The translations under genes were made by a program, and so were the position numbers. Below are positions 1,882 to 18,443 of a DNA stretch of 18,580 nucleotides, one piece after another. The notes under the pieces are model-generated. The model did no database searches and had not been told where the DNA came from. It saw only the letters and a list, made by a program, of their open reading frames with translations. Numbering within the stretch: position 1 is the stretch's first letter; every line of letters begins with the position of its first letter. The DNA is from an uncultured Asticcacaulis sp. GTDB taxonomy: Bacteria; Pseudomonadota; Alphaproteobacteria; Caulobacterales; Caulobacteraceae. The stretch lies in assembly GCA_946482045.1 (NCBI GenBank), contig CAMLPZ010000049.1, positions 1 through 18,580 on the forward strand, in the 5' to 3' direction.

Positions 1882-1923
1882 AAGGGTATCCGGACTTTCC
1901 TGACGCTCAACCAAACGTCCGCT

Positions 1924-2640: not shown

Positions 2641-2652
2641 ACACGTATGGCC

Positions 2653-3102: not shown

Positions 3103-3134
3103 GGGGCGGTCCTTTCGAGTGACGGATTTCACGC

Positions 3135-3175
3135 AGTTTACGCCCTGGCAATGACGTGGGTTTGATTCCGATCAA
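3135..3175 (-). promoter_or_regulatory. FNR/FixK-dependent promoter of the phasin gene
   Basis: A perfect box TTGAT-N4-ATCAA lies at 3162-3175. On the minus strand a -10-like TAAACT (3135-3140) starts 29 bases from the box centre, the spacing of a class II FNR promoter with the box at -41.5. The predicted transcript start is near 3127, giving a 5' leader of about 25 bases before the phasin ATG. Confidence 0.75.
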
Positions 3176-3205
3176 CTCGTTCCCGGTATCGTGCCCTGAT
3201 CCACA

Positions 3206-5780
3206 TCAACGGCTGGACGGGTGCCGCGGTAGCCGACCACGCAAGTGATGCCGTCGCCGTTCGTAGGCGAAGAACGCGCGTTTGGCCGCTTCGGTCGTTG
3301 CGAGATAGACGAGCGTAATCCCGAGTAGCCCCCCGACGGTCGGAAAGGGCAAGGGAACGAAGCCCAGCCACTGGGCGACGGGGCTATAGGGCAGGGCGAC
3401 CGCAACCACGGCTGTCACTGCACTCAGCCTGGTCAGCCAGCGGCCGGGGCGGTCCGACCAGAACGGTTTGCGGGTGCGGATGATAAACACGATGGCAATT
3501 TCTGTGAGCAGGGATTCCACAAACCATCCTGTCTGGAAAGGTGCGGGGGCTGCGTCCGCCATGTGAAACAGAAAGACAAATGTCACGACGTCGAAAAATG
3601 TGCTGATCAGGTCGAAGCAGATCATGAACCGGCTGACGAACCCGATGTCCCATCGCCGGGGTGACCGCAGGGCGCCCGGCTCGACATGATCGGCGGCAAT
3701 GGCCATCGCGGGAATATCGGACAGAAGATTGTTCAGGAGTATCTGCTTTGGCAGAAGCGGAAGGAAAGGCAGGAATATCGAAGCCAGCGCCATGCTGATC
3801 ATATTGCCGAAATTTGCGCTGGTCGTGATCGAAATGTATTTCAGTGTGTTCGCGAAGGTTTGGCGGCCGTTGCGAATGCCGGTCAGAAGAACCCCGAGAT
3901 CCTGTTGCAGGAGAACCATATCCGCCGCCTCGCGGGCCACCTCTACGGCATTGTTTACCGAAATGCCGATGTCGGCTTCGACGAGGGCCGGCGCGTCGTT
4001 GATGCCATCGCCCATATAGCCGACGACGTGTCCCGCCTGGCGGAGGGCCGCAATGATTCGCTCCTTTTGACTGGGCCCGATCTCAGCGAAGATATCGGTT
4101 CTGGCCGCCGCGGCGAACAGCGCGTCCAGCGACATGCCGTCGAGCGCGTCTCCCGTGAGCACCTTGGGTGGCAGACCAATCAGTTCGCCCGTATGTGCGG
4201 CGATGTAGCGGTTGTCGCCGGAAATAATCTTCAGGCGGATGCCGCGCGAGGCCAAGGTCGTCACCATGTGGGTTATGCCGGACTTCAACGGGTCGAGGAA
4301 CAGCAGAAAGCCGTTGAGGAGCATGCGGCATTCCGCTGACCGCTCGACGGCCATCCCGTCAGGCAAGATGCGCGTGGCCACGGCCAGCACACGAAAACCT
4401 TGCCGGCTCCAGGCTTGGAAACGGGCATCGATTTCCATACGCCTTACGTCCGTCAGCGGCTGGGGACCGGCCGTCCCAGCGATGTCGGTGCAGACCTCAA
4501 GCACGTTGGCCACGGCGCCCTTGCAGATAAGCACGCGCTGATCCTGCGATAGAATCGCCACGGACAGCCGCTTGCGATGAAAATCGTAGGGGATTTCTCC
4601 GCATTTGATGGCACGGGTCGCCTCGGGGCCGGCCTCAAGGATGGCGGAATCAAGCGGGTTGGCGAGGCCACTTTGCAAGGCCGCATTGTCGCGTGCCAGC
4701 GTCAGGACCGCCTCCGAGGTCTCGCCGAAAGCGTCATAGGCGGCATGCAGTGCAACATGTCCTTCCGTCAGCGTTCCGGTCTTGTCGGTACACAGGACCG
4801 TCATGCTGCCGAGGTTCTCGATCGCTTCGAGGCGACGGACAATCACTCCGTCCCTGGCCATCCGGCGCGCGCCTCTCGCCAGGGTAACGCTGACGATGGC
4901 CGGCAGGAGCTCGGGTGTTATGCCGACGGCGAGCGCGACACTGAACAACAGGGAGTCGATGACGGGGCGCTGGAGCAGGAGGTTTGCAGCCAGAACCCCC
5001 AACCACGAGGACCGTCATGATCTGCGTCATGAGAACCCCAAACTGCCGCAGGCCGCGCGCGAAGTCCGTTTCGGGGATCTGCCGTTCCAGGCTGGCGGCG
5101 ATGCCGGCAAATTCCGTATCGCGACCTGTACACGCCACGAGCATGCGGCCTGTTCCGCTGCGGACCGAGGTGCCGGCAAACAAGGCATTGCTGCGTTTGC
5201 TGACGGGAGCGTCGGGGGCGCTTACGCCTGGGGTCTTCAGCGTGGGAAAGGTTTCGCCCGTCAAGTCGGCTTCGCTGACGTTCAGGTCGCAGGTCTCCAG
5301 CACGACACCATCGGCCGGTATAAGCGCACCCGCCCGCAGGCAGACAAGGTCGCCCGGGACGACGTCTTCCGCCGGCAGGTCCAGCGTCTCGCCGCCACGG
5401 ATGACGCTCACCCGGTAAGCCAGCTGGTGCTGAAGCGCCTGCATCGCACGCGAAGCGCTCCATTCCTGCGAAAAGCCGATCGTGCAACTGAGGACCAGGA
5501 TCACAATGATGATCAGGGCTTCGTGGGGCTCTCCGGACACGGCGGCAACGACCGCCGCCGCCAGGAGAATCAGCATCAAGGGGCTGGAGAACTGGCGGAG
5601 GAAAAGGCGCACGCCGCGGGTGCGGTTCGCAGGCGCGATTCGATTGGGTCCGTGGAGAACGAGACGCTCTGCCGCCGTGCGCGGCGCCAACCCGTTTTCG
5701 CTGCTTGACAACGCAGAGGCTAGCTCCGACGCCGGCCGGGTCCAAAAGGGCGGAGCCCCGGCGGACAGAGGATCTGTCAT
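3206..5780 (-). pseudogene. mgtA: magnesium-type P-type ATPase (MgtA/MgtB-like), split by a one-base frameshift
   Basis: A P3B-like ATPase, the family that imports Mg2+ across the inner membrane. It is encoded in two frames: the N-terminal part from the ATG at 5780, and the C-terminal part open from about 5002 to the stop at 3206. Removing one G from the run at 4996-5000 joins them into an 857-aa protein of normal family length. In the joined numbering: cation-ATPase N-terminal segment and first membrane helices (about 60-105), actuator TGE at 174-176, GITPELLP in the next membrane helix, phosphorylation site D332 in DKTGTLT, K-G-A nucleotide-binding motif, GDGINDAPAL hinge at about 590-599, and C-terminal membrane helices. 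The ATG at 5780 lies one base after the stop of the upstream gene, with AGGA as SD, so translation is coupled. Both halves look intact, so a sequencing error or recoding is as possible as a recent mutation. Confidence 0.85.
4996..5000 (-). other. frameshift site in the P-type ATPase gene (run of five G on the coding strand)
   Basis: The upstream frame reads L-V-V up to this run; the downstream frame continues V-L-A-A-N-L. Dropping one G joins them as V-V-G-V-L-A-A-N with no other change. The site is in the membrane stretch just before GITPELLP. Confidence 0.85.
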
Positions 5781-5781
5781 G

Positions 5782-6309
5782 TTAATCCTGCGGCCCCTCC
5801 CGGGCCGGCCAATGGTGGCTCAGCCGGTCGGCGAGGTCTGTCGCATTAAGCGCTGTGAAATCCTTGTCGATTTCCAGGAAGAGACTGTCGCGCACGCCTT
5901 GGCCGTAATGCGAACGCAACATGCCAAGAAAGTGGGGTGGCGCGACCACGGCAAGGCGATCGAAGCGCCTGGCAGCGAACGCCGTGTTCAACTGATCGGC
6001 CACCCGCTTGGCAAGCTCCATCTTGCTTCGCGATCTCGGATCGGGCTGCACTTCCGGTGCGTGGCGGAGCGCACCGACACTCTCGAACACAAGCCCAGGC
6101 GGATGATGTCGACCCGTGGTAATCGGCTCTGCCATCGCGCCGAGGCCGGGAATGGGCTCCAGCGTCCAGGTTTCGATCTCATCCGTCCTGGGCGCGGACG
6201 GATCGATGCGGCTCCCAGGCTTTCGAGCGAATATCCGGGCCTGATGTCCGTCGGCAACGACAACCCATGTTTTGGTGGCATGGTGGGGAAGGGGGGGCGA
6301 GTTTGTCAT
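5782..6309 (-). CDS. Host_attach family protein (possible release-factor-like fold)
   Basis: A 175-aa protein of the Host_attach family, named for proteins required for attachment to host cells. It has the N-terminal strand T-W-V-V-V-A-D-G and R-I-F, a basic central helix, and the C-terminal signature F-D-R-L-A-V-V-A-P-P followed by L-G-M-L-R. From memory, this family belongs to a wider group of bacterial proteins related to archaeal/eukaryotic release factor eRF1, which would suggest work on stalled ribosomes rather than adhesion; that is inference. No signal peptide or membrane segment is visible, so it should be cytoplasmic. The SD (GAGGA) overlaps the stop of the SDR gene, eight bases upstream, and its own stop is one base from the ATPase ATG, so it is the middle gene of a coupled operon. 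A divergent relative lies at 7220-7780. Confidence 0.8.
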   Translation of the reverse strand: MTNSPPLPHHATKTWVVVADGHQARIFARKPGSRIDPSAPRTDEIETWTLEPIPGLGAMAEPITTGRHHPPGLVFESVGALRHAPEVQPDPRSRSKMELAKRVADQLNTAFAARRFDRLAVVAPPHFLGMLRSHYGQGVRDSLFLEIDKDFTALNATDLADRLSHHWPAREGPQD

Positions 6310-6317
6310 TTTGGTCC

Positions 6318-7085
6318 TCAGCGCGCGGTGTAGCCGCCGTCAATCACAAATTCGGCCCCGGTCACGAACTTGCTTTCGTCAGAGGCGAGATAAACGATGG
6401 CCCAGCCGACATCGTTCGGTTCGCCGATGCGTCCGAGCGGATGAAGCTTTGCCGCTTCGCTGCGGAACACGTCGACCCCGGCCTCGCTCTCCTGCGCGAC
6501 CTGATGCACCATGTTTGTCCAGATATAGCCGGGATGAATGGAGTTCACGCGGATATGATCAGGGGCGTAAAGCATAGCATCCGTCTTGGTCATCAGGCGG
6601 ACGGCGCCCTTGGAGGCATGATAGGGCGGGCTATCCGGCGCGCCGATCAGGCCATAGATCGACGACAGATTAATGATGGAGCCACCGTGCCCCTTGCGCA
6701 TGTAGGGGATGACGTGCTTGGTGCAGAAGAACACGCCCTTGACATTGACGTCCATCACCGCGTCCCATTCGTCTTCGGTGACTTCGTGCGTAGGCTTGTT
6801 GACCCCGGCGATGCCGGCATTGTTGACCAGGATATCAATGCTGCCGAGGGCCGAAACAATATTGGCGAATGTGTCCTTGACCTTGCCTTCGCTGGCCGTG
6901 TTCAGCACCCAAAGATGCGCGCGGCCGCCAGCTTCACGGATGTCGGCCGCCACCTTTTCGCCGGCCTGGTCGATATCGCAGATGGCGATTGTTGCGCCCT
7001 CGCTCGCCAGCAGCCGGCAGGCGGCCTCACCTATTCCGGTCGCCCCGCCGGTGACGATGGCGACCTTGCCCTTGACCCTGTCCAT
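6318..7085 (-). CDS. SDR family NAD(P)-dependent oxidoreductase
   Basis: A 255-aa classical short-chain dehydrogenase/reductase. The Rossmann motif T-G-G-A-T-G-I-G is at about 12-19, D37 after the second strand suggests NAD(H) preference, N-N-A-G is at about 88-91, and the catalytic S141/S142, Y155 and K159 (Y-H-A-S-K) are present. The C-terminus has the usual V-T-G-A-E-F-V-I-D-G-G-Y. It resembles cyclopentanol/glucose dehydrogenase-like SDRs, but the substrate cannot be read from sequence. The ATG at 7085 is preceded by GGGAG and AGGA. It is the first gene of the operon with the Host_attach protein and the P-type ATPase, and is transcribed from the FNR/FixK-type promoter at 7120-7160. Confidence 0.9.
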   Translation of the reverse strand: MDRVKGKVAIVTGGATGIGEAACRLLASEGATIAICDIDQAGEKVAADIREAGGRAHLWVLNTASEGKVKDTFANIVSALGSIDILVNNAGIAGVNKPTHEVTEDEWDAVMDVNVKGVFFCTKHVIPYMRKGHGGSIINLSSIYGLIGAPDSPPYHASKGAVRLMTKTDAMLYAPDHIRVNSIHPGYIWTNMVHQVAQESEAGVDVFRSEAAKLHPLGRIGEPNDVGWAIVYLASDESKFVTGAEFVIDGGYTAR

Positions 7086-7119
7086 GATCCTGCTCCCGGA
7101 TGCTGTTTCGGATCGTCAC

Positions 7120-7160
7120 AGTTTATCGCACGCGTCCCCACGTAATTTGATCCTGGTCAA
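7120..7160 (-). promoter_or_regulatory. FNR/FixK-type promoter of the SDR operon, possibly bidirectional
   Basis: The box TTGAT-CCTG-GTCAA (7147-7160, one mismatch) is followed on the minus strand by TAAACT at 7120-7125. Hexamer and spacing are the same as in the phasin promoter. The predicted start near 7112 gives a 27-base leader to the SDR gene. On the plus strand a weaker TAGTTT lies at the same distance towards the gene at 7220, so one box may serve both directions. Confidence 0.7.
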
Positions 7161-7219
7161 GCCGCCCGCCCGCCGACGTCCTAGTTTACGGTTATTAACC
7201 TTTTGCTAGGGAGTTCCTC

Positions 7220-7780
7220 ATGATGCACGTGGCAACCAACTATATTGAAATGGCGCGATCAGTGGCGCTTGAGCCCTTCAGCGCGGACGGGGCGAAGGCC
7301 ATGCCGGTGACGTGGGTGGTGTGCATCACGGCGCGTGAGGCCCGGGTACTTTCCCGGACTGTCGCGGATATCAGTGACCGGTTTCCGGGGACGATGGACT
7401 CCTGGCGCGGGCGAACCGCGTGGTGGCTTGAGCCGGAGGCCGGGATGCAATTGGGCGTTTACCGTGAGCCAAGGGGTCACTGTCCCGAGGTCGAAGGCCA
7501 ACTGGCGCGACTGATCGGCCCACTTTTGAACCTGTCGAAAGCCGCGGGACATCTCGACCAACTGGTAACGGTCGCACATCCTGAGACACGCAGTTGTCTA
7601 TCGCACTATCTGAACTTTGCCACGCGGGCTTGCATTATCGCGGAATTGAATTTGCCCGAGGACGACAGTCCGGCGGGTTTGCAAAACTGGCTGTCTGCTC
7701 AATTGCCGGCGACTTTTCCAGCGGACTCGTGCTTTCCACTGGATCTGCCGCCGAGGCCCGCAAACGCACCGGCCGCGTAG
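7220..7780 (+). CDS. divergent Host_attach-like protein
   Basis: A 186-aa protein that I would first call hypothetical, but it can be aligned by eye with the Host_attach protein at 5782-6309. Both have T-W-V-V near the start of the domain, A-R-V/I shortly after, and near the C-terminus D-Q/R-L-V-x-V-A-x-P followed by a L-x-S-H-Y segment. The basic middle part of the classical family is shortened and replaced by a Trp/Pro-rich stretch (about residues 55-95). An AGGGAG Shine-Dalgarno lies six bases before the ATG at 7220. It is divergent from the SDR operon and shares the FNR-type box at 7147-7160. No signal peptide or membrane helix is seen. It converges on the LuxR gene. The function is unknown; the family link is by pattern only. 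Confidence 0.65.
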   Translation: MMHVATNYIEMARSVALEPFSADGAKAMPVTWVVCITAREARVLSRTVADISDRFPGTMDSWRGRTAWWLEPEAGMQLGVYREPRGHCPEVEGQLARLIGPLLNLSKAAGHLDQLVTVAHPETRSCLSHYLNFATRACIIAELNLPEDDSPAGLQNWLSAQLPATFPADSCFPLDLPPRPANAPAA

Positions 7781-7822
7781 ATGAAAGGACGCTCGGTCTA
7801 TGATTGACAACTCGCCGGGGCG

Positions 7823-8473
7823 TCAGTCGAGTAGGCGCAGGACAAGCGACCGGGAGGCATTGCTGCCATGCGTCCCAAGCTTGCCGTATATGGCACGCAG
7901 ATGCGCGCGAACCGTATTCACGGAAATATTGTTAATCGTTGCGATACGTTTCGGACAAAGACTGCTCACCAGACCGGCGAGGATCTTGGATTCCGCCGCC
8001 GTAAGACCGAAGCTCGTGGTGATCGAAGCCATGTCGGGTGCGGTTTGCGGTTGAGGCGAGCCTATCAGCACGTCGAAAACTTTCGGCGTCTGTCCCATGC
8101 AACGAACAGAAAGGCCCACCCAGTCGCCATCTCCGACGGCCAGGATACCGTGGTGCCACCGATTTGCATCCCGTTTTGCAGTCTTGAGCGCCTCCTCAAA
8201 GGTGGCTTGGGCGCGCGCCGAGTGAAACCGCAACTGGCCTTGTCCGTTCATTGACAGCATCTCACTCTGAAGCAGATCACGGGCGGATGCATTCGCGCAT
8301 TCCACCCTTTGGTTGGCGCTGATGATGAACCTGACCTTCCGGTCGTACTCGAAACACTCCCAAAACAGCGTCGACGAACGTTGGCGGGCGATATCCTCGT
8401 GAGGATCAAGAGTATCGTTTCCTGAAGGTGAGGCGCCGGCTTTGAAGGCAGTGGCCGAGCTAAGGTCGGGCAT
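7823..8473 (-). CDS. LuxR family helix-turn-helix regulator
   Basis: A 216-aa protein with a C-terminal LuxR/GerE DNA-binding domain at about residues 150-216: L-T-x-A-E-S-K-I-L, K-R-I-A-T-I-N-N-I-S, V-N-T-V-R-A-H-L-R-A-I-Y-G-K-L. The N-terminal 140 residues contain a possible PAS-like sensor segment (A-N-Q-R-V-E-C-A-N, then a glycine-aspartate turn G-D-G-D-W-V-G), but I cannot assign a ligand. It has no receiver domain, so it is not a two-component regulator. AGGAG lies seven bases before the ATG at 8473. It stands alone: the convergent Host_attach-like gene ends 42 bases beyond its stop, and a 770-base gap lies upstream. Targets are unknown. Confidence 0.8.
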   Translation of the reverse strand: MPDLSSATAFKAGASPSGNDTLDPHEDIARQRSSTLFWECFEYDRKVRFIISANQRVECANASARDLLQSEMLSMNGQGQLRFHSARAQATFEEALKTAKRDANRWHHGILAVGDGDWVGLSVRCMGQTPKVFDVLIGSPQPQTAPDMASITTSFGLTAAESKILAGLVSSLCPKRIATINNISVNTVRAHLRAIYGKLGTHGSNASRSLVLRLLD

Positions 8474-9245
8474 GACATGCTCCTGTCCGATAGGGGACGG
8501 CTATAGCGGTGTTCGAATGCGCCGCTGCAGTCCAGAAGGAAGATCGCCCCTGCATGGCTGGGTGTTTGAAAACCGTCCGCGCCGGGTCTTTGGGGCGACG
8601 GCCGACATGACGCGGTAAGTCACCGCTGGGAATGATGGCAGGAACAGGCGTCATTGAAAGCACAGGCTTATTCATCAGTAGAAAGTCCCGGAAACTACAC
8701 CGAAAGCAGCATGGGGTTTTTGACCTCCATCAATTGGTTTCGCAGGTGCCACGTGCGGCGGATCACGCGGCAGCGCCTGCGTATTGAGCGGGCTTAACGC
8801 CTAGAGCGATGTGGAGAAAAGTGTCAGCGGTTTTTGCCAAAATAGCAATATAAATCAACATGTTACATAGGAATGGTGTTTCCATCTAACCCCATTCCGA
8901 TCTAGGGTGCCCAAGAAACGCTCAGCCCGTCAGGTCACGGCAATCGCAATTGATCGCGATCAATATTTCACTCTGGACATACCGGCAGAGTGATCCTGGC
9001 TCTGAGCTTTGGACACAAGGGGCTGATGTTCAGATTGAGCACATGGCTCCGCAATCGTGGACCCGTCCCTGCGCCAATCTACGTTGGCCGCTTCGATCCG
9101 AAAAATCGGGTGTTGCCGTCCAGATCACGTGCCTCTGCAGACCGGCGTCAACTGCATGAGCACCGGCGAAGCGGCCAACGCGGCCTTAGGCCGTGATCTG
9201 GGGGGAACGGTTGGCATATTTTCAATGTAAGCAGCGGGAACAAAG
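8474..9245. other. long intergenic region between the LuxR gene and the ECF sigma gene
   Basis: No convincing gene in 772 bases; the open frames here lack SD sites and protein-like composition. It holds a perfect FNR/FixK box at 8950-8963, an inverted repeat GGAATGG/CCATTCC (8870-8876 and 8892-8898) and a palindrome CGGCCTTAGGCCG (9181-9193). It may hold the promoters of both flanking genes, or an unannotated RNA. Confidence 0.5.
8950..8963. promoter_or_regulatory. perfect FNR/FixK box, target unclear
   Basis: TTGAT-CGCG-ATCAA, fully palindromic. Towards the plus strand only a weak -10 candidate (CAGAGT, 8986-8991) lies at class II spacing, which would start a transcript near 8998, about 250 bases before the sigma factor ATG. 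No -10 is visible in the other direction. Confidence 0.65.
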
Positions 9246-9827
9246 ATGAATGTACAAACTATGACGCGTGCTTATGAGCACACCGTCGACCCCCACCAGG
9301 TCGATCGGCTCCTCGAGAGGGTCGCGCAAGGCGAGCAATTTGCGCTCTCTAGCCTCTATAAAGTTGTGGCGCCCAAGCTATTTGCCAAGCTGCTGTTAAC
9401 TGTCCGGAGCCGCGGAGCGGCTGAAGATATTCTTCAAGAGGCTTTCATAACAATATGGCGCAAATCCCATCAGTTCGATCGCTCGAAAGGAAGCGCCGAG
9501 GCCTGGCTACACACGGTCGCAAAACGGAAAGCAATAGATCAGCTTCGAAGAGAATACAGGTTGAACGCCGCAGCTCGACTTGAGGCAACCGAACCGGAGC
9601 CCGACCGGCCTGAGGATAGCGCCGAGGTGGAAACCGCATTGGCGGTCCGCACCTGCTTGCAACATATGCGACCGGAAATCCGCGATGCCGTGTTGTGGTC
9701 GTTTGTTCACGGCTTTACGAACACCGAAATAGCGGATCGAATGAATGTTCCGGTTGGCACGGTTAAGAGCTGGATACGTCGCGGGCTGATTTCACTGAGG
9801 GTCTGGCTGGAGGGGCACGGAGAATAA
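9246..9827 (+). CDS. ECF-type RNA polymerase sigma factor
   Basis: A 193-aa sigma-70 family protein with only regions 2 and 4. Region 2 covers about residues 36-103 (A-E-D-I-L-Q-E-A-F, then F-D-x-x-K-G-S-A-E-A-W-L, then R-x-x-A-I-D-x-L-R-R). Region 4 covers about 134-188 (F-x-x-G-x-T-N-T-E-I-A-D-R-M-N-V-P-V-G-T-V-K-S-W-I-R-R-G). The proportions resemble the RpoE/SigK group. ECF factors are usually held by an anti-sigma encoded next door, but none is present: the next gene is a LysR regulator on the other strand. GGGAAC lies upstream of the ATG at 9246 as a modest SD. A perfect FNR/FixK box sits 280 bases upstream, so control by oxygen is possible but not shown. Confidence 0.87.
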   Translation: MNVQTMTRAYEHTVDPHQVDRLLERVAQGEQFALSSLYKVVAPKLFAKLLLTVRSRGAAEDILQEAFITIWRKSHQFDRSKGSAEAWLHTVAKRKAIDQLRREYRLNAAARLEATEPEPDRPEDSAEVETALAVRTCLQHMRPEIRDAVLWSFVHGFTNTEIADRMNVPVGTVKSWIRRGLISLRVWLEGHGE

Positions 9828-9831
9828 GACG

Positions 9832-9846
9832 AGCCCAGTTTGGGCT
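9832..9846 (+). terminator. possible hairpin terminator after the ECF sigma gene
   Basis: AGCCCA-GTT-TGGGCT forms a six-base stem with a three-base loop, five bases after the sigma stop codon, followed by TTCG. The U-tract is very short, so termination strength is uncertain. Confidence 0.4.
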
Positions 9847-9903
9847 TTCGAGCGCGCGGTTTGCGCCCCCTATGGGTTGGAGCCCGCCCCAATGGCGCCC
9901 GGA

Positions 9904-10809: not shown

Positions 10810-10837
10810 TTCCTAGTGTACCATACATAGCGCCTCA

Positions 10838-10854
10838 TGCACTTGTTAAGTGCA
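10838..10854. promoter_or_regulatory. inverted repeat, likely operator between LysR and MFS genes
   Basis: TGCACTT-GTT-AAGTGCA, a perfect 7-bp dyad with a three-base centre, 28 bases upstream of the LysR start. It is a good candidate for the LysR binding site. It overlaps a possible MFS start at 10837, which favours the start at 10924. Confidence 0.55.
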
Positions 10855-10923
10855 AACCGTGCGTCTTCCGCCAGATATAAGCCTTCGGTACTGTGCTTCA
10901 TCTTTGAGCGCACGGGTGCCGTT

Positions 10924-12372
10924 ATGTCCAAGATCACCGATTCGACAAATCCAGGATATTTGACGCGGGGAACGTCACTTCTGTCGGGTGGGCTGTTGCC
11001 GCTGTCTGCCGCCGTTCTATTGTCCTCCCTGGGCACAAGCATTGCGAATGTGGCCTTGCCGAATTTTGCCACCGCCTTCGGTGCGCCATTCCATGCAGTC
11101 CAATGGGTGTCCATTGCCTACCTTCTGACCATGACCGCACTGGTCGTCGCCGCGGGCAGGCTCGGAGACATGTACGGCCGCCGGAAACTCTTGCTGGTGG
11201 GCCTGGGTATTTTTACCGCTGCGTCTGTTCCGGCGTCCCTGGCACCGGGCTTGGAGGTGTTGGTCGCGGCCAGGGCCAGCCAAGGTGTCGGTGCGGCGCT
11301 GATGATGTCGCTCGGCATGGCCCTGGTTAGTGAAAGCGTTCCCGCTGAAAAAACGGGGAGTGCGATGGGGTTGCTGGGGACCATGTCCGCCGTCGGCACG
11401 GCACTGGGCCCCACTCTGGGTGGCCTTATGATCGATCTGTGGGGTTGGCCATCAATCTTTCTGGTCAACGTCCCGGCTGGGGTTATTGTTCTTGTCATGG
11501 TGCAGATGAATGTGCCTAAACAGACGGTTATCAGGGCGCCTCAACTCGGCCTGGACATGCCGGGCCTTCTGACCCTGGCAGCTACGCTGGCCACCTACGC
11601 GCTCTCCATGACGATTGGCCGCGGCCACTTCGGCATGAGCAGCCTCGCGATGCTGGTCTTGGTCGTCATCGGTATCGCGACCTTCGTACTGATCGAGCGT
11701 CAGGCCAAAACACCTCTTGTGCCGTTGAAACTGCTTAATGGCCGCGCGATGAGTGTCGGCTTGTTCACGAACATGGTCGTTTCGGCCGTTCTGATGTCGA
11801 CGCTTGTTGTCGGTCCCTTCTACCTGTCGATTGCACTCGGCCTGAAGGCTGCCATGGTCGGCGTGGTTATGTCCGTTGGTCCCTTACTGTCAGCTCTGAC
11901 CGGTGTTCCCGCCGGCCGATTGGTCGACCGTATCGGTGCGCCGCAAGTTTCCATTCTGGGATTGTTCGGCATTCTCCTTGGATGCGGACTGCTGGTGGTG
12001 TTGCCCGAAACTTTGGGTGTCGCCGGGTATGTCGGTCCGATCGCGATGATTACCGTCAGTTATGCACTGTTTCAGGCCGCCAACAATACCGCGATCATGA
12101 AGGACGTTGCGCAACAGGACAGGGGAGTAACGTCGGGTTTATTGAACCTGTCCCGCAATCTTGGACTGGTCACGGGTACGTCCGTAATGGGTGCCATCTT
12201 CGCCCTCGGCGTTGGCTCACCCAATCTTGCGGCTGCTGGCTCTGAAGCGGTTGTCAGTGGAATGCACCTTGCCTTCACAGTGTCCGCGGCCTTCGTGGTG
12301 CTAGCCTTGCTCGCGGCCGGCTTGAACCTCAGCCTCGCCGCCCGGAACACCGGTCCCGAAGGGGAGGCCTGA
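10924..12372 (+). CDS. MFS transporter, DHA2 family (drug:H+ antiporter type)
   Basis: A 482-aa, very hydrophobic protein with about 14 predicted membrane helices, typical of the DHA2 (EmrB/QacA) family of proton-driven exporters in the inner membrane. Motif A appears as G-R-L-G-D-M-Y-G-R-R-K after the second helix, and motif C-like G-P-T-L-G-G followed by W-G-W-P-S-I-F-L-V-N-V-P-A-G, the DHA2 hallmark. The ATG at 10924 is used: the frame is open from 10837, but that start lies at the edge of the operator-like repeat and has no SD. The SD at 10924 is also poor. No EmrA-type membrane fusion partner is adjacent. The divergent LysR regulator probably controls it. Substrate unknown. Confidence 0.88.
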   Translation: MSKITDSTNPGYLTRGTSLLSGGLLPLSAAVLLSSLGTSIANVALPNFATAFGAPFHAVQWVSIAYLLTMTALVVAAGRLGDMYGRRKLLLVGLGIFTAASVPASLAPGLEVLVAARASQGVGAALMMSLGMALVSESVPAEKTGSAMGLLGTMSAVGTALGPTLGGLMIDLWGWPSIFLVNVPAGVIVLVMVQMNVPKQTVIRAPQLGLDMPGLLTLAATLATYALSMTIGRGHFGMSSLAMLVLVVIGIATFVLIERQAKTPLVPLKLLNGRAMSVGLFTNMVVSAVLMSTLVVGPFYLSIALGLKAAMVGVVMSVGPLLSALTGVPAGRLVDRIGAPQVSILGLFGILLGCGLLVVLPETLGVAGYVGPIAMITVSYALFQAANNTAIMKDVAQQDRGVTSGLLNLSRNLGLVTGTSVMGAIFALGVGSPNLAAAGSEAVVSGMHLAFTVSAAFVVLALLAAGLNLSLAARNTGPEGEA

Positions 12373-12434
12373 GCTACGCTGGCTCAAGATGCGATCAAGA
12401 GGCGGGCACCGGTGCACGGCTCAGCGACACCTGC

Positions 12435-12917
12435 TCAGCGCCTTGGGAATTCCGCGTATATGACTGTTCCTTCGGCAAGCTGGCACCTGCCGAAGCCGCC
12501 GCCGGATAACCCGGACAAGGGGTGGGAAAGGCTGAACCGGCACCGCATCTTTCTGCCAGAAGGATCCTGCAGATTCGCCAGGACCGTGCCTGAATAGGTC
12601 GTCACTCTGAAGTCTTCGGCACCCCATCCCGGCCAACCGCGCCAGCGGTCTCGCCCCTCCCAGCCGGACCAAAGGGGGCCAAGATCATTAACCCGCGTTT
12701 CCTGAGTGATCTGAAAGAAGGGGCCCGTGTACGTCTGGCCATTCATCAAGTCGGCGGTCATCGTCCCGCGCACTCCGTCGTCCGACGTCCAATTGAACCT
12801 TCCCTGGATCGCACCGGCTTGCGATGTCGCCACGCCGCTTCCGGTTGTCGTGCATGCGCTGACAAACAGACTCGCGGCCAGGGCCATGACGACTGATGCG
12901 ACGGGAGATTGTGACAT
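12435..12917 (-). CDS. small predicted lipoprotein of unknown function
   Basis: A 160-aa protein with a signal peptide and lipobox: a hydrophobic stretch (residues 6-20) ending in V-S-A-C, so C22 should be lipid-modified and the protein anchored in the periplasm or outer membrane. The mature part starts Thr/Gly/Ser-rich and contains a Trp- and Gly-rich middle (W-S-G-W-E-G-R, W-R-G-W-P-G-W-G, about 95-115) and two further cysteines near the C-terminus (R-C-R-F, G-R-C-Q-L). I do not recognise the family. The ATG at 12917 has GGAG at SD distance; a longer frame to 12959 has no SD and would bury the signal peptide. It converges on the MFS gene. Upstream is a 250-base structured leader driven by an FNR/FixK-type promoter. 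Confidence 0.7.
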   Translation of the reverse strand: MSQSPVASVVMALAASLFVSACTTTGSGVATSQAGAIQGRFNWTSDDGVRGTMTADLMNGQTYTGPFFQITQETRVNDLGPLWSGWEGRDRWRGWPGWGAEDFRVTTYSGTVLANLQDPSGRKMRCRFSLSHPLSGLSGGGFGRCQLAEGTVIYAEFPRR

Positions 12918-13031
12918 ATGTGTCTCCAGTGCGTGGGCTGGGAAAAGTATCCGCTCCACGGGCGTTCGTGTTGACCGGGACCAAGCCTGCCGGCTGAACG
13001 TACAATGCGGTGCGCGGCCGCGACATTCTCA

Positions 13032-13064
13032 CTGGCGCGGATGGATATTGACCATCCGCGCCAG
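13032..13064. repeat. 13-bp perfect inverted repeat (strong hairpin)
   Basis: CTGGCGCGGATGG (13032-13044) and CCATCCGCGCCAG (13052-13064) with a 7-base loop. There is no U-tract on either side, so it is not a classical terminator. It lies in the predicted leader of the lipoprotein mRNA. Confidence 0.8.
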
Positions 13065-13074
13065 CAAACCCCGA

Positions 13075-13113
13075 TAGGCTCCATGCGGTTCGTAAGTCCC
13101 TCCACGGAGCCTA
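13075..13113. repeat. second inverted repeat TAGGCTCC/GGAGCCTA
   Basis: TAGGCTCC (13075-13082) pairs with GGAGCCTA (13106-13113) across a 23-base loop, ten bases from the 13-bp hairpin. The two together make the leader strongly structured. Confidence 0.6.
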
Positions 13114-13183
13114 CGCCCGTCCGCGAGAGGGGGCGTCGCGGGCAAGGTCCGGGTCATGGCAGCGCCGTGCCCGAACACCTGTC

Positions 13184-13224
13184 ACTATGATCAGTTTCAC
13201 GAGCGGCCGGTTGATCAGGATCAA
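13184..13224 (-). promoter_or_regulatory. FNR/FixK-dependent promoter upstream of the lipoprotein gene
   Basis: A perfect box TTGAT-CAGG-ATCAA at 13211-13224. On the minus strand CATAGT (13184-13189) lies at class II spacing, predicting a start near 13176. The only recognised gene downstream is the lipoprotein at 12917, so the leader would be about 260 bases and would include two hairpins. Confidence 0.6.
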
Positions 13225-13331
13225 TCGGCGAGCAGGTTGTTGCTTTCGGGGTAACGGAGACAGAGATGGTTGAAGTCTGTCGTACGGAGGATCGGCGAGC
13301 CCCGCTCCCCGCTGCGAGCCTTTTTCCGCGC

Positions 13332-14954
13332 TCAGATGCCAAGGTCCGGACCTGCCGCCGGCTGAGTCTTCGCGTCAGGCGCTTCGGTCATGGTTGCCTC
13401 TGTCAACAGCAGGACACTTGCCACCGAGACGGCGTTTTCAAGCGCTATCCGAACCACCTTGGTCGGATCGACAACGCCGGAAGCCATCAGGTCGACATAG
13501 GTTTTCCGGCTGGCGTCGAACCCTTCATTGCCGCTGGAGGCAAGCATACGGCCAACCACGACCCCTCCATCGACCGCGGAGTTTTCGGCAATCTGTCTGG
13601 CGGGAGTCTCAAGGGCATGTTTGAGAATTCGCACTCCGGTTCGCTCATCGCCTTCGACCAAGGCCTCCTCCTGGGAGATAGCATCGAGACACCGCAGCAA
13701 CGCCAGGCCGCCGCCGGGGACGATTCCTTCGGCCACCGCGGCCTTCGCGGCGCTGATGGCATCTTCAAGCGCCTCCTTTCTTGATCGCATTTCCGCTTCG
13801 GACGGCGCGCCGACACGGATAACCGCCACGCCGCCCGAGAGTTTGGCCAGTCTTTCCTGAAGTTTCTCACGGTCGTAATCGCTGTCCGCCGTTTCGATTT
13901 CGCGACGAATCTGCTTGATCCGCCCGTCTATGACAGCCGGCTCCCCTGCGCCGCCGATAAGGGTCGTCGTATCCTTGTCGACTATGGCGCGCCTAGCCCT
14001 GCCGAGGTGCTCAAGGCGGACGTGTTCGAGTTTTAGTCCGAGGTCTTCCGATACGACTTGCCCGCCGGTCAGCACCGAAAGGTCCTGCAACAGGGCCTTG
14101 CTCCGCTCACCAAAGCCCGGAGCCTTGATACCACAACTCTTTAGCGCGCCATTGATCTGATTGACGATCAGGGTCGCCAAGGCTTCACTTTCGATATCCT
14201 GGGCGATGACAAGGAGGGGATGGCCTGATTTAGCGACGAGTTCCAAGAGTGCGACCATATCGTTCAGGACCCCAATCTTTCGATCGCACAACAGGATCAG
14301 GGGATCTTCCAGAACCGCTTCCATCTTATCGGGATGCGTGATGAAGTAGGGGGACAGGAAACCGCGATCGAACTGCATGCCCTCCACAATATCGAGCGTC
14401 GTTTGTGTGGACTTCGAGTCTTCGACAGTGATGACGCCATCCTCGCCGACCTTGTCCATCGCGTCGGCCACGAGATCCCCCATGGCCGTATCGTTGTGCG
14501 CCGAAATGGTGGCGACCTGAGCTTTCTCCTGCCGCGTCTTTACGGCGCGGGACATTCCTTTCAAAGCCTCGATGGCGCGTTTCGTGGCCCGGTCCAGACC
14601 CCGCTTGAGCTCGATTGCGCTGGCGCCCGCCACCACGTTGCGGACGCCCTCGGCGAATATCGCCTGGGCGAGGAGCGTGGAGGTGCTCGTCCCGTCGCCG
14701 ACCATTTCGCCTGTCTTTTCCGCCGCCTGACGCAATACGCGCGCGCCAAGATTTTCTTCTGGGTCCTTAAGTTCAAACGCCTTGGCGATGGTAACCCCGT
14801 CATTGCAGATGATCGGTGTGCCCCATCGGCTTTCGATCAATACCGATTTTGACCGCGGCCCCAGGGTGACACGGACCGCGTCGGCGAGTTGGGTCGTGCC
14901 GCGCAGTATTTTTTCCCTCGCCGTCGATCCGAAAAAGACTGTCTTGTAGGCCAT
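13332..14954 (-). CDS. groEL: GroEL-type chaperonin, divergent paralog
   Basis: A 540-aa group I chaperonin subunit; such proteins form the double-ring ATP-driven folding chamber in the cytoplasm. The nucleotide-binding motifs are present ([28 protein letters not shown] and D-P-T-K-V near the C-terminus), so it should bind ATP. It differs from housekeeping GroEL: it starts with [12 protein letters not shown], has W-G-T-P-I-I-C-N-D instead of the usual G-x-P-x-x-T-K-D, has S for T in the GDGTT motif, and lacks the Gly-Gly-Met tail, ending in a short Pro/Ala-rich segment. No groES lies beside it, so it probably borrows a GroES or works in mixed rings. The ATG at 14954 is chosen for GGAAG seven bases upstream. 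It follows a 64-aa ORF by 29 bases; both appear driven from an FNR/FixK-type promoter. Confidence 0.93.
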
Positions 14955-14983
14955 GGCCATTCTTCCATTTCCATCGTGAGGTT

Positions 14984-15178
14984 TCAATCTTCAAAGCCCG
15001 GCAGGACATGTCCTGCGTCTTCAACCCGCTCAACGGCGGTATTGGGTTCGCACGGACGTTCTCCTTCGACGTCCACGGCCTCGCTATTGATGGCCTTCGC
15101 GAACGCATCTGCGCCTTCGCAGGAGCCATGGTTACGCCTGCGTTTGCCGGGCGAGAACGTTGTGGTTTTACCGGTCAT
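14984..15178 (-). CDS. small hypothetical protein upstream of groEL
   Basis: A 64-aa, hydrophilic ORF: a basic N-terminal part (K-R-R-R at about 12-15) followed by an acidic C-terminal half. Codon third positions look like those of neighbouring genes. GGGAG lies ten bases before the ATG at 15178, slightly far. It ends 29 bases before groEL and begins about 43 bases after the transcript start predicted from the box at 15256-15269, just where the first gene of the operon should start. I do not recognise a family. It could be a non-coding leader instead. Confidence 0.45.
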   Translation of the reverse strand: MTGKTTTFSPGKRRRNHGSCEGADAFAKAINSEAVDVEGERPCEPNTAVERVEDAGHVLPGFED

Positions 15179-15228
15179 ACGGTTTCAACTCCCGATGCGC
15201 ACCGCCTGCGCCAGCCAGACGCGCAGCC

Positions 15229-15269
15229 ATGCTAGCCGCTCAGGAGGACGCAAGGTTGACATTAATCAA
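15229..15269 (-). promoter_or_regulatory. FNR/FixK-type promoter of the groEL operon
   Basis: The box TTGAC-ATTA-ATCAA at 15256-15269 (one mismatch) has TAGCAT at 15229-15234 on the minus strand at class II spacing. The predicted transcript start is near 15221, ahead of the 64-aa ORF and groEL. Confidence 0.6.
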
Positions 15270-15396
15270 ACCGCACGAAGGCGGCGGACCTGTCCGTGCC
15301 AAGGTCTTCGCCGCGAAAGGCGTGGAGCGTCCGCGACCTGCGTCGTTATCAACCGCCGGTGCAATGCCTTTGATCCGCCAGTACGGACGGTCCCGA

Positions 15397-15438
15397 TTGA
15401 GCAGGATCAAATTTGAACCTCAACCCACGGCTTAAAAT
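15397..15438 (+). promoter_or_regulatory. FNR/FixK-type promoter of the phosphoribosyltransferase operon
   Basis: The box TTGAG-CAGG-ATCAA at 15397-15410 (one mismatch) is followed by TAAAAT at 15433-15438, a five-of-six match to a -10 hexamer at class II spacing. The predicted start near 15445 gives a 130-base leader before the ATG at 15578. Confidence 0.6.
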
Positions 15439-15455
15439 CAACGTGACCAAAGGCC

Positions 15456-15475
15456 GTTGGTGATCGTTGGTGATC
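15456..15475 (+). repeat. tandem 10-bp direct repeat GTTGGTGATC x2
   Basis: Two exact, adjacent copies, about 12 bases after the predicted transcript start of the phosphoribosyltransferase operon, with a degenerate third TGGTGA after them. It may be a chance duplication or a binding site in the leader. Confidence 0.5.
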
Positions 15476-15577
15476 TGGTGACCGCTCATGCGGTTGGCGA
15501 GGTCGCCGGCAGGCCGATGCCGAACCCCGAGAACCGCATCCGTTTGGTGGCGGAAGATCGGTCAACGGAGACACAAC

Positions 15578-16237
15578 ATGTATAAAGACCGTTACGATGC
15601 CGGCAGGCAGCTTGCGAACGTCATGGCCCGCCGGCGCAGCCAATGGTCGGGCATTGTCCTGGCCCTGCCGCGCGGAGGCGTGCCTGTCGGTTTCGAGATC
15701 GCGCATCGTCTGGATCTGCCTCTCGATATTTGTCTTGTACGGAAACTCGGGTTGCCAGCTCAGCCCGAACTGGCCATCGGGGCGATCGCGGAGGGCGGCG
15801 TCCTCGTACTGAATGATGACCTGGTTCGTCGTCTACGCGTAACCTCGGCGACGATAGAGCGCATTGCCGAGAACGAAAGACGGGAATTGGATCGGCGGTC
15901 GATAGCCTACCGCGGTACATGCAACCTGCCGGACCTGCGAGGCCAGACGGTGATTTTGGCGGACGACGGTTGTGCAACAGGCGCCAATATGTGTGCCGCT
16001 ATCCAGGCCGCGGGACGCGCTGGCGCGGCGTGGATCATTGTTGCTGTCCCGGTCGCGTCGAAGGAGGCTTCCAGGCTTCTTGAGAAGCTCGCTGATGAGG
16101 TGATCTGTCTGGCCGTTCCATCGCCTTTTGGCGCCGTAGGTCAGTACTACCAGGACTTCGCGCAAGTTCCGGACCAGGCGGTTACCTTGCTCCTCGCTCA
16201 GGTCAAGCCGCCAGGCAGAGTCGCGTCGGGAGGCTAA
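15578..16237 (+). CDS. phosphoribosyltransferase family protein
   Basis: A 219-aa type I phosphoribosyltransferase-like protein. The PRPP-binding loop is seen as V-I-L-A-D-D-G-C-A-T-G-A at about 125-136, preceded by the P-R-G-G-V-P-V-G pyrophosphate-loop motif at about 31-38 and the V-R-K-L-G segment at about 54-58. It matches the group of predicted phosphoribosyltransferases that are often linked to dienelactone-hydrolase-like proteins; the substrate is not known. ACGGAG lies seven bases before the ATG at 15578; longer frames to 15488 have no SD. It is the first gene of a plus-strand operon with an alpha/beta hydrolase and ExoD, behind an FNR/FixK-type promoter. It may act in nucleotide salvage, but in these clusters that is unproven. 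Confidence 0.85.
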   Translation: MYKDRYDAGRQLANVMARRRSQWSGIVLALPRGGVPVGFEIAHRLDLPLDICLVRKLGLPAQPELAIGAIAEGGVLVLNDDLVRRLRVTSATIERIAENERRELDRRSIAYRGTCNLPDLRGQTVILADDGCATGANMCAAIQAAGRAGAAWIIVAVPVASKEASRLLEKLADEVICLAVPSPFGAVGQYYQDFAQVPDQAVTLLLAQVKPPGRVASGG

Positions 16238-16238
16238 C

Positions 16239-16442
16239 ATGTTCGCTTCAATGGTTTCGCCTGATGCCAAGAGCCTTTCGCCGCGGACGCGCGGGAGCGC
16301 GGTCGGACGGCCGGACCGCTCAATTCCACTTACCAGACGGTGTTGCGTGACAGGCGATGTCAAAAATCTTCGCGCTCCGGCGGATGTAATCACCGGATCC
16401 ATTTGCGCCGGTTCGCCCTCCAGCCTTCAGGAGCACCCATGA
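16239..16442 (+). CDS. possible small 67-aa protein between phosphoribosyltransferase and hydrolase
   Basis: An open frame with a very good SD (GGGAGG, six bases before the ATG) one base after the phosphoribosyltransferase stop. Its own TGA overlaps the ATG of the hydrolase gene in an ATGA junction, the classical mark of translational coupling. The protein is Ser/Arg/Pro-rich with three cysteines, has no recognisable domain, and its codon third positions are less GC-rich than in the neighbours. It could be a real small protein, a coupling ORF, or a decayed gene. Confidence 0.4.
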   Translation: MFASMVSPDAKSLSPRTRGSAVGRPDRSIPLTRRCCVTGDVKNLRAPADVITGSICAGSPSSLQEHP

Positions 16443-17107
16443 GCGTCCTCACAAACCCGGATATCGTAGACAAGGACGTCGTACTCACGCTTTCCGGCGT
16501 CCGTCTATATGGTCATCTTACCTTGCCACCATCGATGTCTGGCCTGGTCATCTTCGCGCATGGCAGTGGATCGAGCTCGCGGAGCCCACGCAACCGCTCC
16601 GTCGCAACAGCGATGAATAAAATGGGAGTTGGCACTTTGGTCATGGATTTGCTGGCATCCGGCGAAGCGGCGACCGACGAACGCACGGGCCGCCTGAGGT
16701 TCGACATACCTTTTCTGGCGAACCGTTTGGACTCTATCGTGGATTGGGCGAGGCGGCAGGCATTTGCCCGGGAATGCCCGATCGGCCTTTTTGGTGCGAG
16801 TACGGGCGCCGCCGCGGCGTTGATGGTGGCCGGCCGTCGCGGCGATATCGCCGCCGTCGTTTCGCGCGGGGGAAGGCCCGATCTGGCAGCGGACGCGTTG
16901 GAAGCCGTCTCTGCGCCGGTGCTGCTGATTGTCGGCGGCAGGGATACGCACGTGCTCGACTTAAACCGGGAAGCGCTCAAACGCATGTCGGCTCCGGCCA
17001 GCCTCGATATCATCGCGGATGCCGGCCATCTTTTCGAGGAGGGCGATGCCTTGGCGATCGTGGCGCGACACGCCACCGACTGGTTTCGCCGCTGTTTTTC
17101 ACAATGA
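16439..17107 (+). CDS. alpha/beta hydrolase, dienelactone-hydrolase-like
   Basis: A 222-aa single-domain alpha/beta hydrolase. The oxyanion segment F-A-H-G-S-G is at about 39-44, nucleophile S121 is in the elbow G-A-S-T-G, and the acid and base of the triad are probably D169 (G-G-R-D-T) and H197 (A-G-H-L-F). The family covers dienelactone hydrolases and small esterases; the true substrate is unknown. The start at 16439 has CAGGAG five bases upstream; a longer frame to 16340 has no SD. It shares an operon with the phosphoribosyltransferase, a pair that is recurrent in bacteria and sometimes fused, which suggests one joint function. Confidence 0.87.
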   Translation: MSVLTNPDIVDKDVVLTLSGVRLYGHLTLPPSMSGLVIFAHGSGSSSRSPRNRSVATAMNKMGVGTLVMDLLASGEAATDERTGRLRFDIPFLANRLDSIVDWARRQAFARECPIGLFGASTGAAAALMVAGRRGDIAAVVSRGGRPDLAADALEAVSAPVLLIVGGRDTHVLDLNREALKRMSAPASLDIIADAGHLFEEGDALAIVARHATDWFRRCFSQ

Positions 17108-17204
17108 GGGACAAGTCGCCTTGAGTGCGATGTCCGACCTACCCTGGATATCACCATCGGCGACCCGTTGCCATCGCCCCGCCGGTGGCCATCGTGCCCA
17201 GAAG

Positions 17205-17873
17205 ATGAGTTACATGCCCCGTTTGGGCCCGGATGGGGGGCGCGCCGGTGACAAAGACGGAGAACTGGCGTCCTCGGAACTGTTTTTGCGGCTAGCCGCG
17301 CGCCTCTCCGGGGATCGGATATCGGTTGGCGAACTGACTGAATGTCTGGCGGGGCGAGGGATTGGCATCCTGCTGCTTATTTTCTCTCTGCCGCTTTGCA
17401 TCCCGAATGTGCCGGGGATTTCGACATTGTTCGGATTACTGCTTCTGGCGCCCGCTATTCAGCTGATCAGAGGCCAGGACGCTCTGTCAGTCCCGGGTTT
17501 CGCCCGTCGATGGGCCGTCGATGGGCGCGCACTGCGCGCGGCCTTCCGGGTGGGAAGCCGTGTGTTGCGGCCTGTCGAAATCCTCGCCAAACCACGACTT
17601 GCCGTGCTGACAAGGGGGCCGGCTTTGTCCCTTGCCGGTCTGCAGACCTTGATTCTGGCGCTTGTCCTTCTGCTGCCGATGCCGGGCGCGAACGTCATCC
17701 CGGGTATTGCCATCGCGCTCACCGGAATCGCCATCCTGCGGAAGGACGGACTATTCATGCTGATGTCCGCAGCCGTGGCCGCAGTGGCGCTGGCGTGGGT
17801 TTATCTCGGCGGAAAGTACATCATGGCATTTCTCATGTGGACGCTCGCCTTGTTCTCCGGCATTCAGAGCTGA
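17205..17873 (+). CDS. exoD: ExoD family exopolysaccharide synthesis protein
   Basis: A 222-aa membrane protein of the ExoD family. After a hydrophilic N-terminus it has R-I-S-V-G-E-L, then hydrophobic segments: I-G-I-L-L-L-I-F-S-L-P-L-C-I-P-N-V-P-G-I-S-T, a G-L-L-L-L-A-P-A-I-Q-L segment, a second half with L-L-L-P-M-P-G-A-N-V-I-P-G, and a C-terminal pair of helices. The repeated P-N/G-x-x-P-G pattern is typical. ExoD was described in rhizobia as affecting exopolysaccharide production and alkaline tolerance; its biochemistry is unclear. The start is uncertain: the frame is open from 17019, and 17130 or TTG 17121 (GAGGG upstream) are alternatives, but 17205 gives the usual family length. It lies about 100 bases after the hydrolase stop, probably in the same operon. 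Confidence 0.82.
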   Translation: MSYMPRLGPDGGRAGDKDGELASSELFLRLAARLSGDRISVGELTECLAGRGIGILLLIFSLPLCIPNVPGISTLFGLLLLAPAIQLIRGQDALSVPGFARRWAVDGRALRAAFRVGSRVLRPVEILAKPRLAVLTRGPALSLAGLQTLILALVLLLPMPGANVIPGIAIALTGIAILRKDGLFMLMSAAVAAVALAWVYLGGKYIMAFLMWTLALFSGIQS

Positions 17874-18443
17874 TGCCGGCGCTCCCTGGCATATTCGGCT
17901 GACCGGCAAGCTGACATCCTGGCTCAGCGTCTGCGTGTCCCAGGAGCATATCGTTGTAAATACCTGGAAGGGGCATGGTAACGCCTGGTTGCCGTTGACA
18001 TCCGGAAACGAGAGTTGTCCCGGCCGTGATAGCCTCCTGTATGGACGTGGCGTTTGGTCCGCGGACGAGACATAGCGTTGATATCGATCAGTTCTGGCTC
18101 CCCACAGTTCCGGATTTAACCGCCGTGCCTTGGCGATGGGGGTTTCATTAAGGATTGCCCGAGTCGATTTTTCAACAAATCCAGGCTATAGGCCTTGGAG
18201 CGGCCCAGCGATGAGAGCGCCAAGGGGGCTGCCCCGCCGACGTTCTTAGGCGTCACCGGCCTGCCACTGCCGATCGCACTCTTGGCGTGCCGTGCCCAGG
18301 TCTCTGCGTCTCGTTCTGAGCGACAAGATCTTGTCGAGGACATGATCCTTACGGTGCAAACAAGCCTGGGCCCGTAGTATATGGCTGTATCTGAGTGCGC
18401 ACGGGTGCACGTTCTGTGTCTAGTCTGTTGAAGTTGATAGAAA
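17874..18443. other. intergenic region between exoD and dusA
   Basis: No convincing gene in 570 bases. Frames open on both strands here lack SD sites and family-like features. Contents seen: an FNR-like box with one mismatch (18078-18091), a palindrome GTCCGCGGAC (18057-18066) and a weak inverted repeat TCCTGG/CCAGGA (17917-17922, 17940-17945). Confidence 0.5.
18078..18091. promoter_or_regulatory. FNR/FixK-like box with one mismatch, target unclear
   Basis: TTGAT-ATCG-ATCAG. No good -10 hexamer lies at class II spacing in either direction, and the next gene (dusA) starts about 350 bases away. It is weaker than the other boxes and could be a chance match. Confidence 0.3.

Follow-up and report, generated by a model that had tools for sequence, protein, structure and literature searches.

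The locus and its anaeroboxes

We analyzed a stretch of 18,580 nucleotides from an uncultured Asticcacaulis sp. (contig CAMLPZ010000049.1, positions 1 to 18,580), which we call the window. It carries 17 listed genes, including co-oriented fixJ and fixK-type genes that adjoin each other and a divergent groEL gene, as well as multiple copies of the FNR/FixK site TTGAT-N4-ATCAA, or anaerobox (Table 1). We consider it probable that the window is a low-oxygen survival island under FixK/FNR-type class II control, with the local FixJ-FixK pair as the presumed switch.

The window was scanned for this pattern at zero and one mismatch. There are perfect boxes at 3162, 8950 and 13211, and boxes with one mismatch at 7147, 15256, 15397 and 18078. 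These seven had all been reported in an earlier note made from the sequence, which missed two additional one-mismatch boxes, at 3196 (CTGATCCACATCAA) and 8720 (TTGACCTCCATCAA). The resulting nine boxes with at most one mismatch compare with a mean of 0.39 and a maximum of 2 in 200 dinucleotide shuffles, none of which reaches nine. The composition of the window predicts 0.004 perfect sites and 0.155 with one mismatch. The excess asserted in the earlier note is thus borne out, and its expectations, which assumed equal base frequencies, were conservative. The window is roughly 60% GC, which makes an AT-rich box rarer rather than commoner. When spacers of 0 to 20 were tried as a control, a perfect match was found at a spacer of 4 only.

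As a genomic background, we used 142 alphaproteobacterial genomes, which together have 1180 perfect boxes over 394 Mb, or 3.0 per Mb (genome sizes rounded to 0.1 Mb). At this density, 0.056 perfect boxes are expected in 18.6 kb, and the probability of at least three is 3e-5. This probability rises to 1.3e-3 at the density of the 95th-percentile genome and to 0.013 at that of the densest of the 142. The placement of the boxes is also uneven: eight of the nine lie wholly within the 18% of the window that is outside the 17 listed genes. The exception is box 3196, which overlaps the stop of the ATPase gene by 4 bases.

Table 1. Anaeroboxes and genes of the window. Positions are those of the window; distances are in bases, and those of -10 hexamers run from the box center to the first base of the hexamer.
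Feature	Position	Strand	Remarks
FixK-type CRP/FNR regulator	53..706	-	Pfam HTH_Crp_2/Crp
FixJ response regulator	810..1517	-	NCBIfam NF006900 265.8 bits, cut-off 255; 5xso FixJ E=7.5e-54
Second CRP-family regulator	1924..2640	+	Pfam HTH_Crp_2; helix region IRRPGITIGLRR, without E-x-x-S-R
Phasin-like small protein	2653..3102	-	Two database relatives only (97% and 91% identical)
Perfect box	3162..3175	-	Class II to phasin-like gene; -10 TAAACT at 28.5
One-mismatch box	3196..3209	-	Tandem with 3162; no -10 at class II spacing; no target
Mg-type P-type ATPase	3206..5780	-	Two overlapping frames, 3206-5002 and 4734-5780
Host_attach / baeRF family 12 protein	5782..6309	-	Pfam PF10116, PF18856
Short-chain dehydrogenase (SDR)	6318..7085	-	Pfam PF13561
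One-mismatch box	7147..7160	.	Between divergent SDR and 7220 genes; -10 TAAACT at 28.5 towards SDR
Second, distant baeRF/Host_attach-like protein	7220..7780	+	E=0.05-0.08, below cut-off
LuxR-like gene	7823-8473		Box 8720 upstream
One-mismatch box	8720..8733	-	Upstream of LuxR-like gene; TGTAGT at 27.5
Perfect box	8950..8963	.	No clear -10, no clear gene
Lipoprotein-like protein	12435..12917	-	Relatives also in sphingomonad plasmid stress islands
Perfect box	13211..13224	-	-10 CATAGT at 28.5; 63.5 from short open reading frame (ORF) start at 13154
Divergent GroEL	13332..14954	-	Separate clade; no GroES nearby, no GGM tail
64-amino-acid ORF between box and groEL	14984..15178	-	No family match
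One-mismatch box	15256..15269	-	-10 TAGCAT at 28.5; 84.5 from 64-amino-acid ORF leading to groEL
One-mismatch box	15397..15410	+	-10 TAAAAT (5/6) at 29.5; 84.5 from 15488
Phosphoribosyltransferase	15488..16237	+	True start may be 15575
Alpha/beta hydrolase	16340-17107	+	Follows phosphoribosyltransferase, same strand
ExoD	within 17019-17873	+	Follows hydrolase, same strand
One-mismatch box	18078..18091	+	In gap ahead of dusA; no close gene or target

Promoter geometry and target genes

For a class II target, the box center is expected about 41.5 bases before the transcription start, which corresponds to a -10 hexamer about 29 bases from the center. We counted all 18 box-ends and asked for a -10-like hexamer matching at 4 or more of 6 positions, with its first base 28.5 or 29.5 bases from the center. 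Such a hexamer is present at 5 of the 18 box-ends, versus 0.48 expected (p=8.5e-5). The five hexamers are as the earlier note had described them, and they belong to boxes 3162, 7147, 13211, 15256 and 15397, in each case on the strand facing a gene. We therefore predict with high probability that the boxes are class II FNR/FixK-type sites, and judging by the sequence it is very likely that at least five promoters are under FNR/FixK class II control. A general scan of the window for sigma-70 promoters and terminators gave results at or below the shuffle level and is hence uninformative.

The five boxes with class II geometry precede the phasin-like gene, the SDR-Host_attach-ATPase genes, a short ORF and the lipoprotein gene, the 64-amino-acid ORF and groEL, and the phosphoribosyltransferase-hydrolase-ExoD genes. 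Their centers are 63-85 bases from the nearest plausible start codon, which in two cases belongs to a small ORF rather than to the named gene. These two cases qualify the earlier assignment of boxes to the lipoprotein and groEL genes: the boxes and their -10 hexamers are present, and the lipoprotein start is 300 bases from box 13211 and the groEL ATG 308 bases (308.5) from box 15256, with a small ORF intervening each time. The SDR, Host_attach and ATPase genes, separated by gaps of 8 and 1 bases, probably form an operon with SDR first. Box 7147 is roughly midway between two divergent genes (68.5 bases to the SDR start and 66.5 to the 7220 start), and a weaker -10, TAGTTT (3/6), faces the 7220 gene. 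Both this gene and the LuxR-like gene, by way of box 8720, are possible targets.

The proportion of genes covered would be 9 of 17 if read-through within operons is granted, or 10 of 17 with the divergent 7220 gene included. The earlier claim that most genes of the window belong to the regulon was consequently overstated, in that it holds for five promoters and reaches 9 or 10 genes only with inferred read-through. Its name for the first of these targets, a phasin, is not upheld either: the protein matches no Pfam or NCBIfam family and has only its two relatives, so we call it phasin-like.

Regulators encoded in the window

The product of 53..706 has the E-x-x-S-R recognition helix that had been ascribed to it: its ETVSR aligns with ETVSR of FixK2 (4i2o), its best solved relative (E=3e-28), and with ETISR of an FNR. 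Of the two CRP-family regulators of the window, only this one has the motif. The other lacks it and therefore probably reads another site.

The iron-sulfur cysteines of FNR are located near the N-terminus. In the window's FixK-type protein, cysteines occur only at residues 66, 73, 107, 113 and 216, and an N-terminal cysteine cluster is absent. Members of the FixK subgroup lack at least one of FNR's four iron-sulfur cysteines (PMC2908626). By this rule, and with no cysteine before residue 66, the regulator belongs with FixK and not with the oxygen-sensing FNR. The NCBIfam FixK equivalog NF050806, a Caulobacter-type model, scores 141 bits against a cut-off of 300. For this reason we use the term FixK-type and leave the protein outside that equivalog.

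A clade of orphan GroEL proteins

The GroEL of the window is 67.5-72.8% identical to the products of groEL genes on 21 plasmids, 1 from Bosea and 20 from Rhizobiaceae. We also searched 397 genomes of the order to which the genome of a Xanthobacteraceae metagenome-assembled genome (MAG) locus belongs (G001). At least 14 of these contain one GroEL that is 67-75% identical to that of the window, with the next matches listed at 55% or less; because at most three candidates were scored per genome, 14 is a lower bound. In a tree of 47 sequences, the window GroEL and 23 relatives (24 of 24) fall on one side of a branch with 100/100 support, apart from 23 ordinary GroELs, with the caveat that the window sequence has a long branch.

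Two further properties set the clade apart. With one Burkholderia GroES as query, GroES was found at none of the 24 clade loci, while the same query finds it at 3 of 3 control loci with an ordinary groEL and at 50 of 80 groEL loci on genome contigs (the 80 are those kept at 50-55% identity, and closer relatives are missed there). The GGM tail is present in none of the 24 clade GroELs and in 22 of the 23 ordinary ones. The best NCBI model for the window GroEL is PRK12851, so the subfamily itself is already catalogued.

Eight plasmid neighborhoods are annotated, and they contain genes for Usp, Hsp20, phosphoribosyltransferase, ppsA, mgtA and host attachment in various sets. Around the orphan groEL of these eight loci we also noted ppsA and glucokinase (4/8), RbbA (4/8) and an erythromycin-esterase-family gene (2/8). 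On pRL9, the groEL is about 13 kb from a response regulator gene and a Crp/Fnr gene, which by position match fxkR9 and fixK9b (starts 27146 and 27090 in Table 1 of PMC7888657). The hFixL-FxkR-FixK pathway of pRL9 has been shown to act on anaerobox genes (PMC7888657).

Boxes around the same GroEL in other genomes

We exploited these relatives to ask how often boxes accompany the gene; the regions read were those of 9 of the 21 plasmids and of all 14 genomes. GroEL was the sole criterion for the choice of genomes, and the nine plasmids were picked by hand from the GroEL matches; the R. lentis and NLR16a plasmids are near-copies of each other and were also known from an ATPase match. The 14 genome islands (273 kb) contain 17 perfect boxes and 46 with one mismatch, compared with 3 perfect and 17 one-mismatch boxes in 398 kb of control sequence (20 stretches from 12 of the 14 genomes). 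The genomes as a whole have 213 perfect boxes in 79.3 Mb, a density at which 0.73 perfect boxes would be expected in the islands, versus the 17 observed. It is important to consider how the controls were composed. Fourteen of the 20 stretches share a contig with an island (several such contigs have the size of a chromosome), 3 are centered on an ordinary groEL and the rest are at arbitrary coordinates. One stretch (L154), which contributes 8 of the 20 control boxes, is about 50 kb away from the orphan groEL of its genome. Since the controls are thus not perfectly clean, the contrast with the islands is, if anything, conservative.

The -10 spacing of class II is found at 35 of 154 box-ends on the plasmids (p=3e-21) and at 20 of 126 in the genomes (p=3e-12). 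All 9 plasmids and 12 of the 14 genomes (21 of 23) have a box with at most two mismatches upstream of groEL, and 7 of 9 and 8 of 14, respectively, have one with at most one mismatch. The corresponding counts for control ORFs, which were defined mechanically as frames of at least 200 amino acids and are not annotated genes, are 18 and 3 of 457. The nearest box in the relatives is 55-106 bases upstream of groEL. Of the 7 perfect boxes on the 877 kb of R. lentis p1, 5 are concentrated within 25 kb.

That anaeroboxes recur together with an orphan GroEL clade is the freshest point of this analysis, and it is modestly new. We found no description of an anaerobox-controlled orphan GroEL island in an open-licence library covered by titles and the starts of abstracts, from which subscription papers are mostly absent. 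We tentatively propose, giving the idea a little less than an even chance, that the window is one of a class of movable alphaproteobacterial anoxia-persistence islands. Their signature would be the orphan GroEL, lacking both GroES and the GGM tail and hard-wired to FixK/FNR anaeroboxes, and it would serve as a chaperonin devoted to low-oxygen conditions, separate from those under heat-shock or NifA control.

Comparison with known systems

Rhizobial anaerobox (FixK/FnrN) regulons, e.g., that of R. leguminosarum/johnstonii 3841 with pRL9, share with the window the TTGAT-N4-ATCAA box and the fixed distance at which activating boxes stand from the start (PMC7888657). The groEL of pRL9 belongs to the same clade and has an anaerobox 86 bases upstream. 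Targets named for the rhizobial regulons are fixNOQP, fixGHIS, fnrN, hypB and a small heat-shock protein (PMC7888657, PMC11784457), the last of which, RLV_1399, is FnrN-dependent (PMC11784457). In contrast, the predicted targets in the window are stress and metabolism genes, none of them recognized as respiratory. In addition, the window has FixJ where 3841 uses FxkR.

The low-oxygen-activated (lxa) locus of Burkholderia cenocepacia resembles the window in its clustered stress genes; it is induced by low oxygen and linked to anoxic survival (PMC9733578, PMC3759415, PMC6127331). This locus comprises 50 genes, six of which encode Usp proteins. Scans of 18 window proteins revealed neither Usp nor Hsp20, and given the lack of Usp we do not file the window as an lxa locus. 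The Fnr regulon of Sphingopyxis granuli TFA is likewise class II, with the box centered at -40.5 to -42.5 in 9 of 10 table rows, including that of uspA (PMC7713065). Unlike the window, it consists of operons spread across the genome and not of an island, and the word "chaperon" is absent from that paper (PMC7713065).

Stress islands on two sphingomonad plasmids (L087, L088) share the lipoprotein family with the window (53-58% identity) as well as the stress-gene setting. They differ in having almost no boxes, namely one with at most one mismatch per 32-kb stretch, and the lipoprotein was consequently dropped as a marker of a box-driven sphingomonad island. These islands carry ClpB, DnaK, GrpE, Hsp20, Dps, Usp and YfdX. 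A search for the lipoprotein gave 2 weak matches in 385 alphaproteobacterial genomes and none in another search of 5 genomes, and was of no help for synteny.

In its way of working, the window would resemble both known anaerobox regulons and loci for low-oxygen persistence, of which lxa is an example. The genes it contains and its relatives are consistent with a low-oxygen stress island. Overall, it is a largely familiar kind of low-oxygen gene cluster, with the anaerobox-linked orphan GroEL as a modest twist.

Proposed mechanism and alternative explanations

In the mechanism we propose, a FixK/FNR-type dimer would bind the boxes, centered about 41 bases before the transcription start, and, acting as a class II activator, recruit RNA polymerase. 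This wiring would apply to at least five promoters, those of the phasin-like gene, the SDR-Host_attach-Mg-ATPase genes, the short ORF with the lipoprotein gene, the small ORF with the orphan groEL, and the phosphoribosyltransferase-hydrolase-ExoD genes. Low oxygen would induce them, with read-through along the operons, and the switch would be the local FixJ-FixK pair together with a FixL encoded outside the window. Respiration and nitrogen fixation are the functions with which anaerobox regulons are mainly associated. In the window, this switch appears to control genes for protein folding, membrane functions and salvage, which would suit a cell that has to endure a loss of oxygen. A specific chaperonin clade appears to mark such islands in rhizobia and relatives and would provide a genomic handle for low-oxygen persistence islands, and with the orphan GroEL one could test why several copies of GroEL are retained in some bacteria.

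That a single FixJ-FixK cascade drives the island, as the earlier note had concluded, is plausible. The part of this claim that stands is that genes of both types lie side by side. The sensor kinase FixL was not found among the window proteins scanned, and scans of the window for a FixJ consensus and for the FxkR K-box gave matches at chance level. It is quite possible, if somewhat doubtful, that the boxes are functional and that their main reader is a different regulator encoded in this genome, such as an FnrN/FNR with an iron-sulfur cluster or a DNR, the local FixK being minor or answering another signal. The FixL and FixJ-site results favor this possibility, as does the observation that the motifs of FNR, FixK and DNR can hardly be told apart in alphaproteobacteria (PMC2908626), so that another regulator could read the boxes of the window. 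Similarly, FixK and FnrN of R. leguminosarum share anaeroboxes (PMC7888657). However, it is the window's own FixK-type protein that has the E-x-x-S-R helix and adjoins FixJ.

Several observations weigh against a single box-driven island. Four of the nine boxes (3196, 8720, the perfect box 8950 and 18078) have no -10 of at least 4/6 at 28.5-29.5 bases, and 6 or 7 of the 17 genes have no assignable box. Among the genes without a box are fixK, fixJ, the second CRP-type regulator and those for an extracytoplasmic-function (ECF) sigma factor, a LysR protein and a major facilitator superfamily (MFS) transporter. Moreover, the 308 bases between box and groEL in the window compare with 55-106 elsewhere, and 2 of the 14 genomes have no box at groEL. 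For relatives of other genes, a box with at most one mismatch is present in 5 of 13 cases for the phosphoribosyltransferase, 1 of 5 for the hydrolase and 1 of 6 for the ATPase, where a conserved box is thus without support; some misses may be false, as 4 of the 13 phosphoribosyltransferase and 2 of the 6 ATPase relatives yielded no start codon. Finally, the control stretches also show the class II spacing (5 of 40 box-ends versus 0.86 expected), which makes this spacing a property of the motif generally and not of the islands alone.

The boxes without a fitting -10 and the genes without a box would suit a situation in which just two or three boxes (those of groEL, phosphoribosyltransferase and SDR) are real and the rest are leftovers or chance, with no single regulon. 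We consider this unlikely, because chance gives 0.39 boxes and 0.48 class II pairs, whereas nine and five are observed. That the entire pattern is a product of chance or composition is highly improbable. Nothing was found in its favor, an AT-rich box being rarer at 60% GC, and it is opposed by the shuffles, the spacer control, the 142-genome background, the intergenic placement, the -10 spacing and the recurrence in other genomes. The weakest point of this counter-case is the probability of three perfect boxes at the densest of the 142 genomes. We therefore retain the interpretation as a low-oxygen island under FixK/FNR-type class II control.

Additional features of the window

Rfam and tRNA scans of the window returned nothing. 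The 770-bp gap at 8474-9245, which holds boxes 8720 and 8950, contains no recognized gene or Rfam family, and it could be home to a low-oxygen small RNA or small protein. The break between the two ATPase frames may sit near a G run around 5000; it could be genuine or result from an assembly error. The divergent LysR and MFS transporter pair at 9904-12372 has no box with at most one mismatch, and is probably outside the low-oxygen set. At the right edge of the window, positions 18444-18580 (+) hold the start of a dusA-like gene (Pfam Dus). The dusA gene is a common insertion site of genomic islands, and the island may end here.

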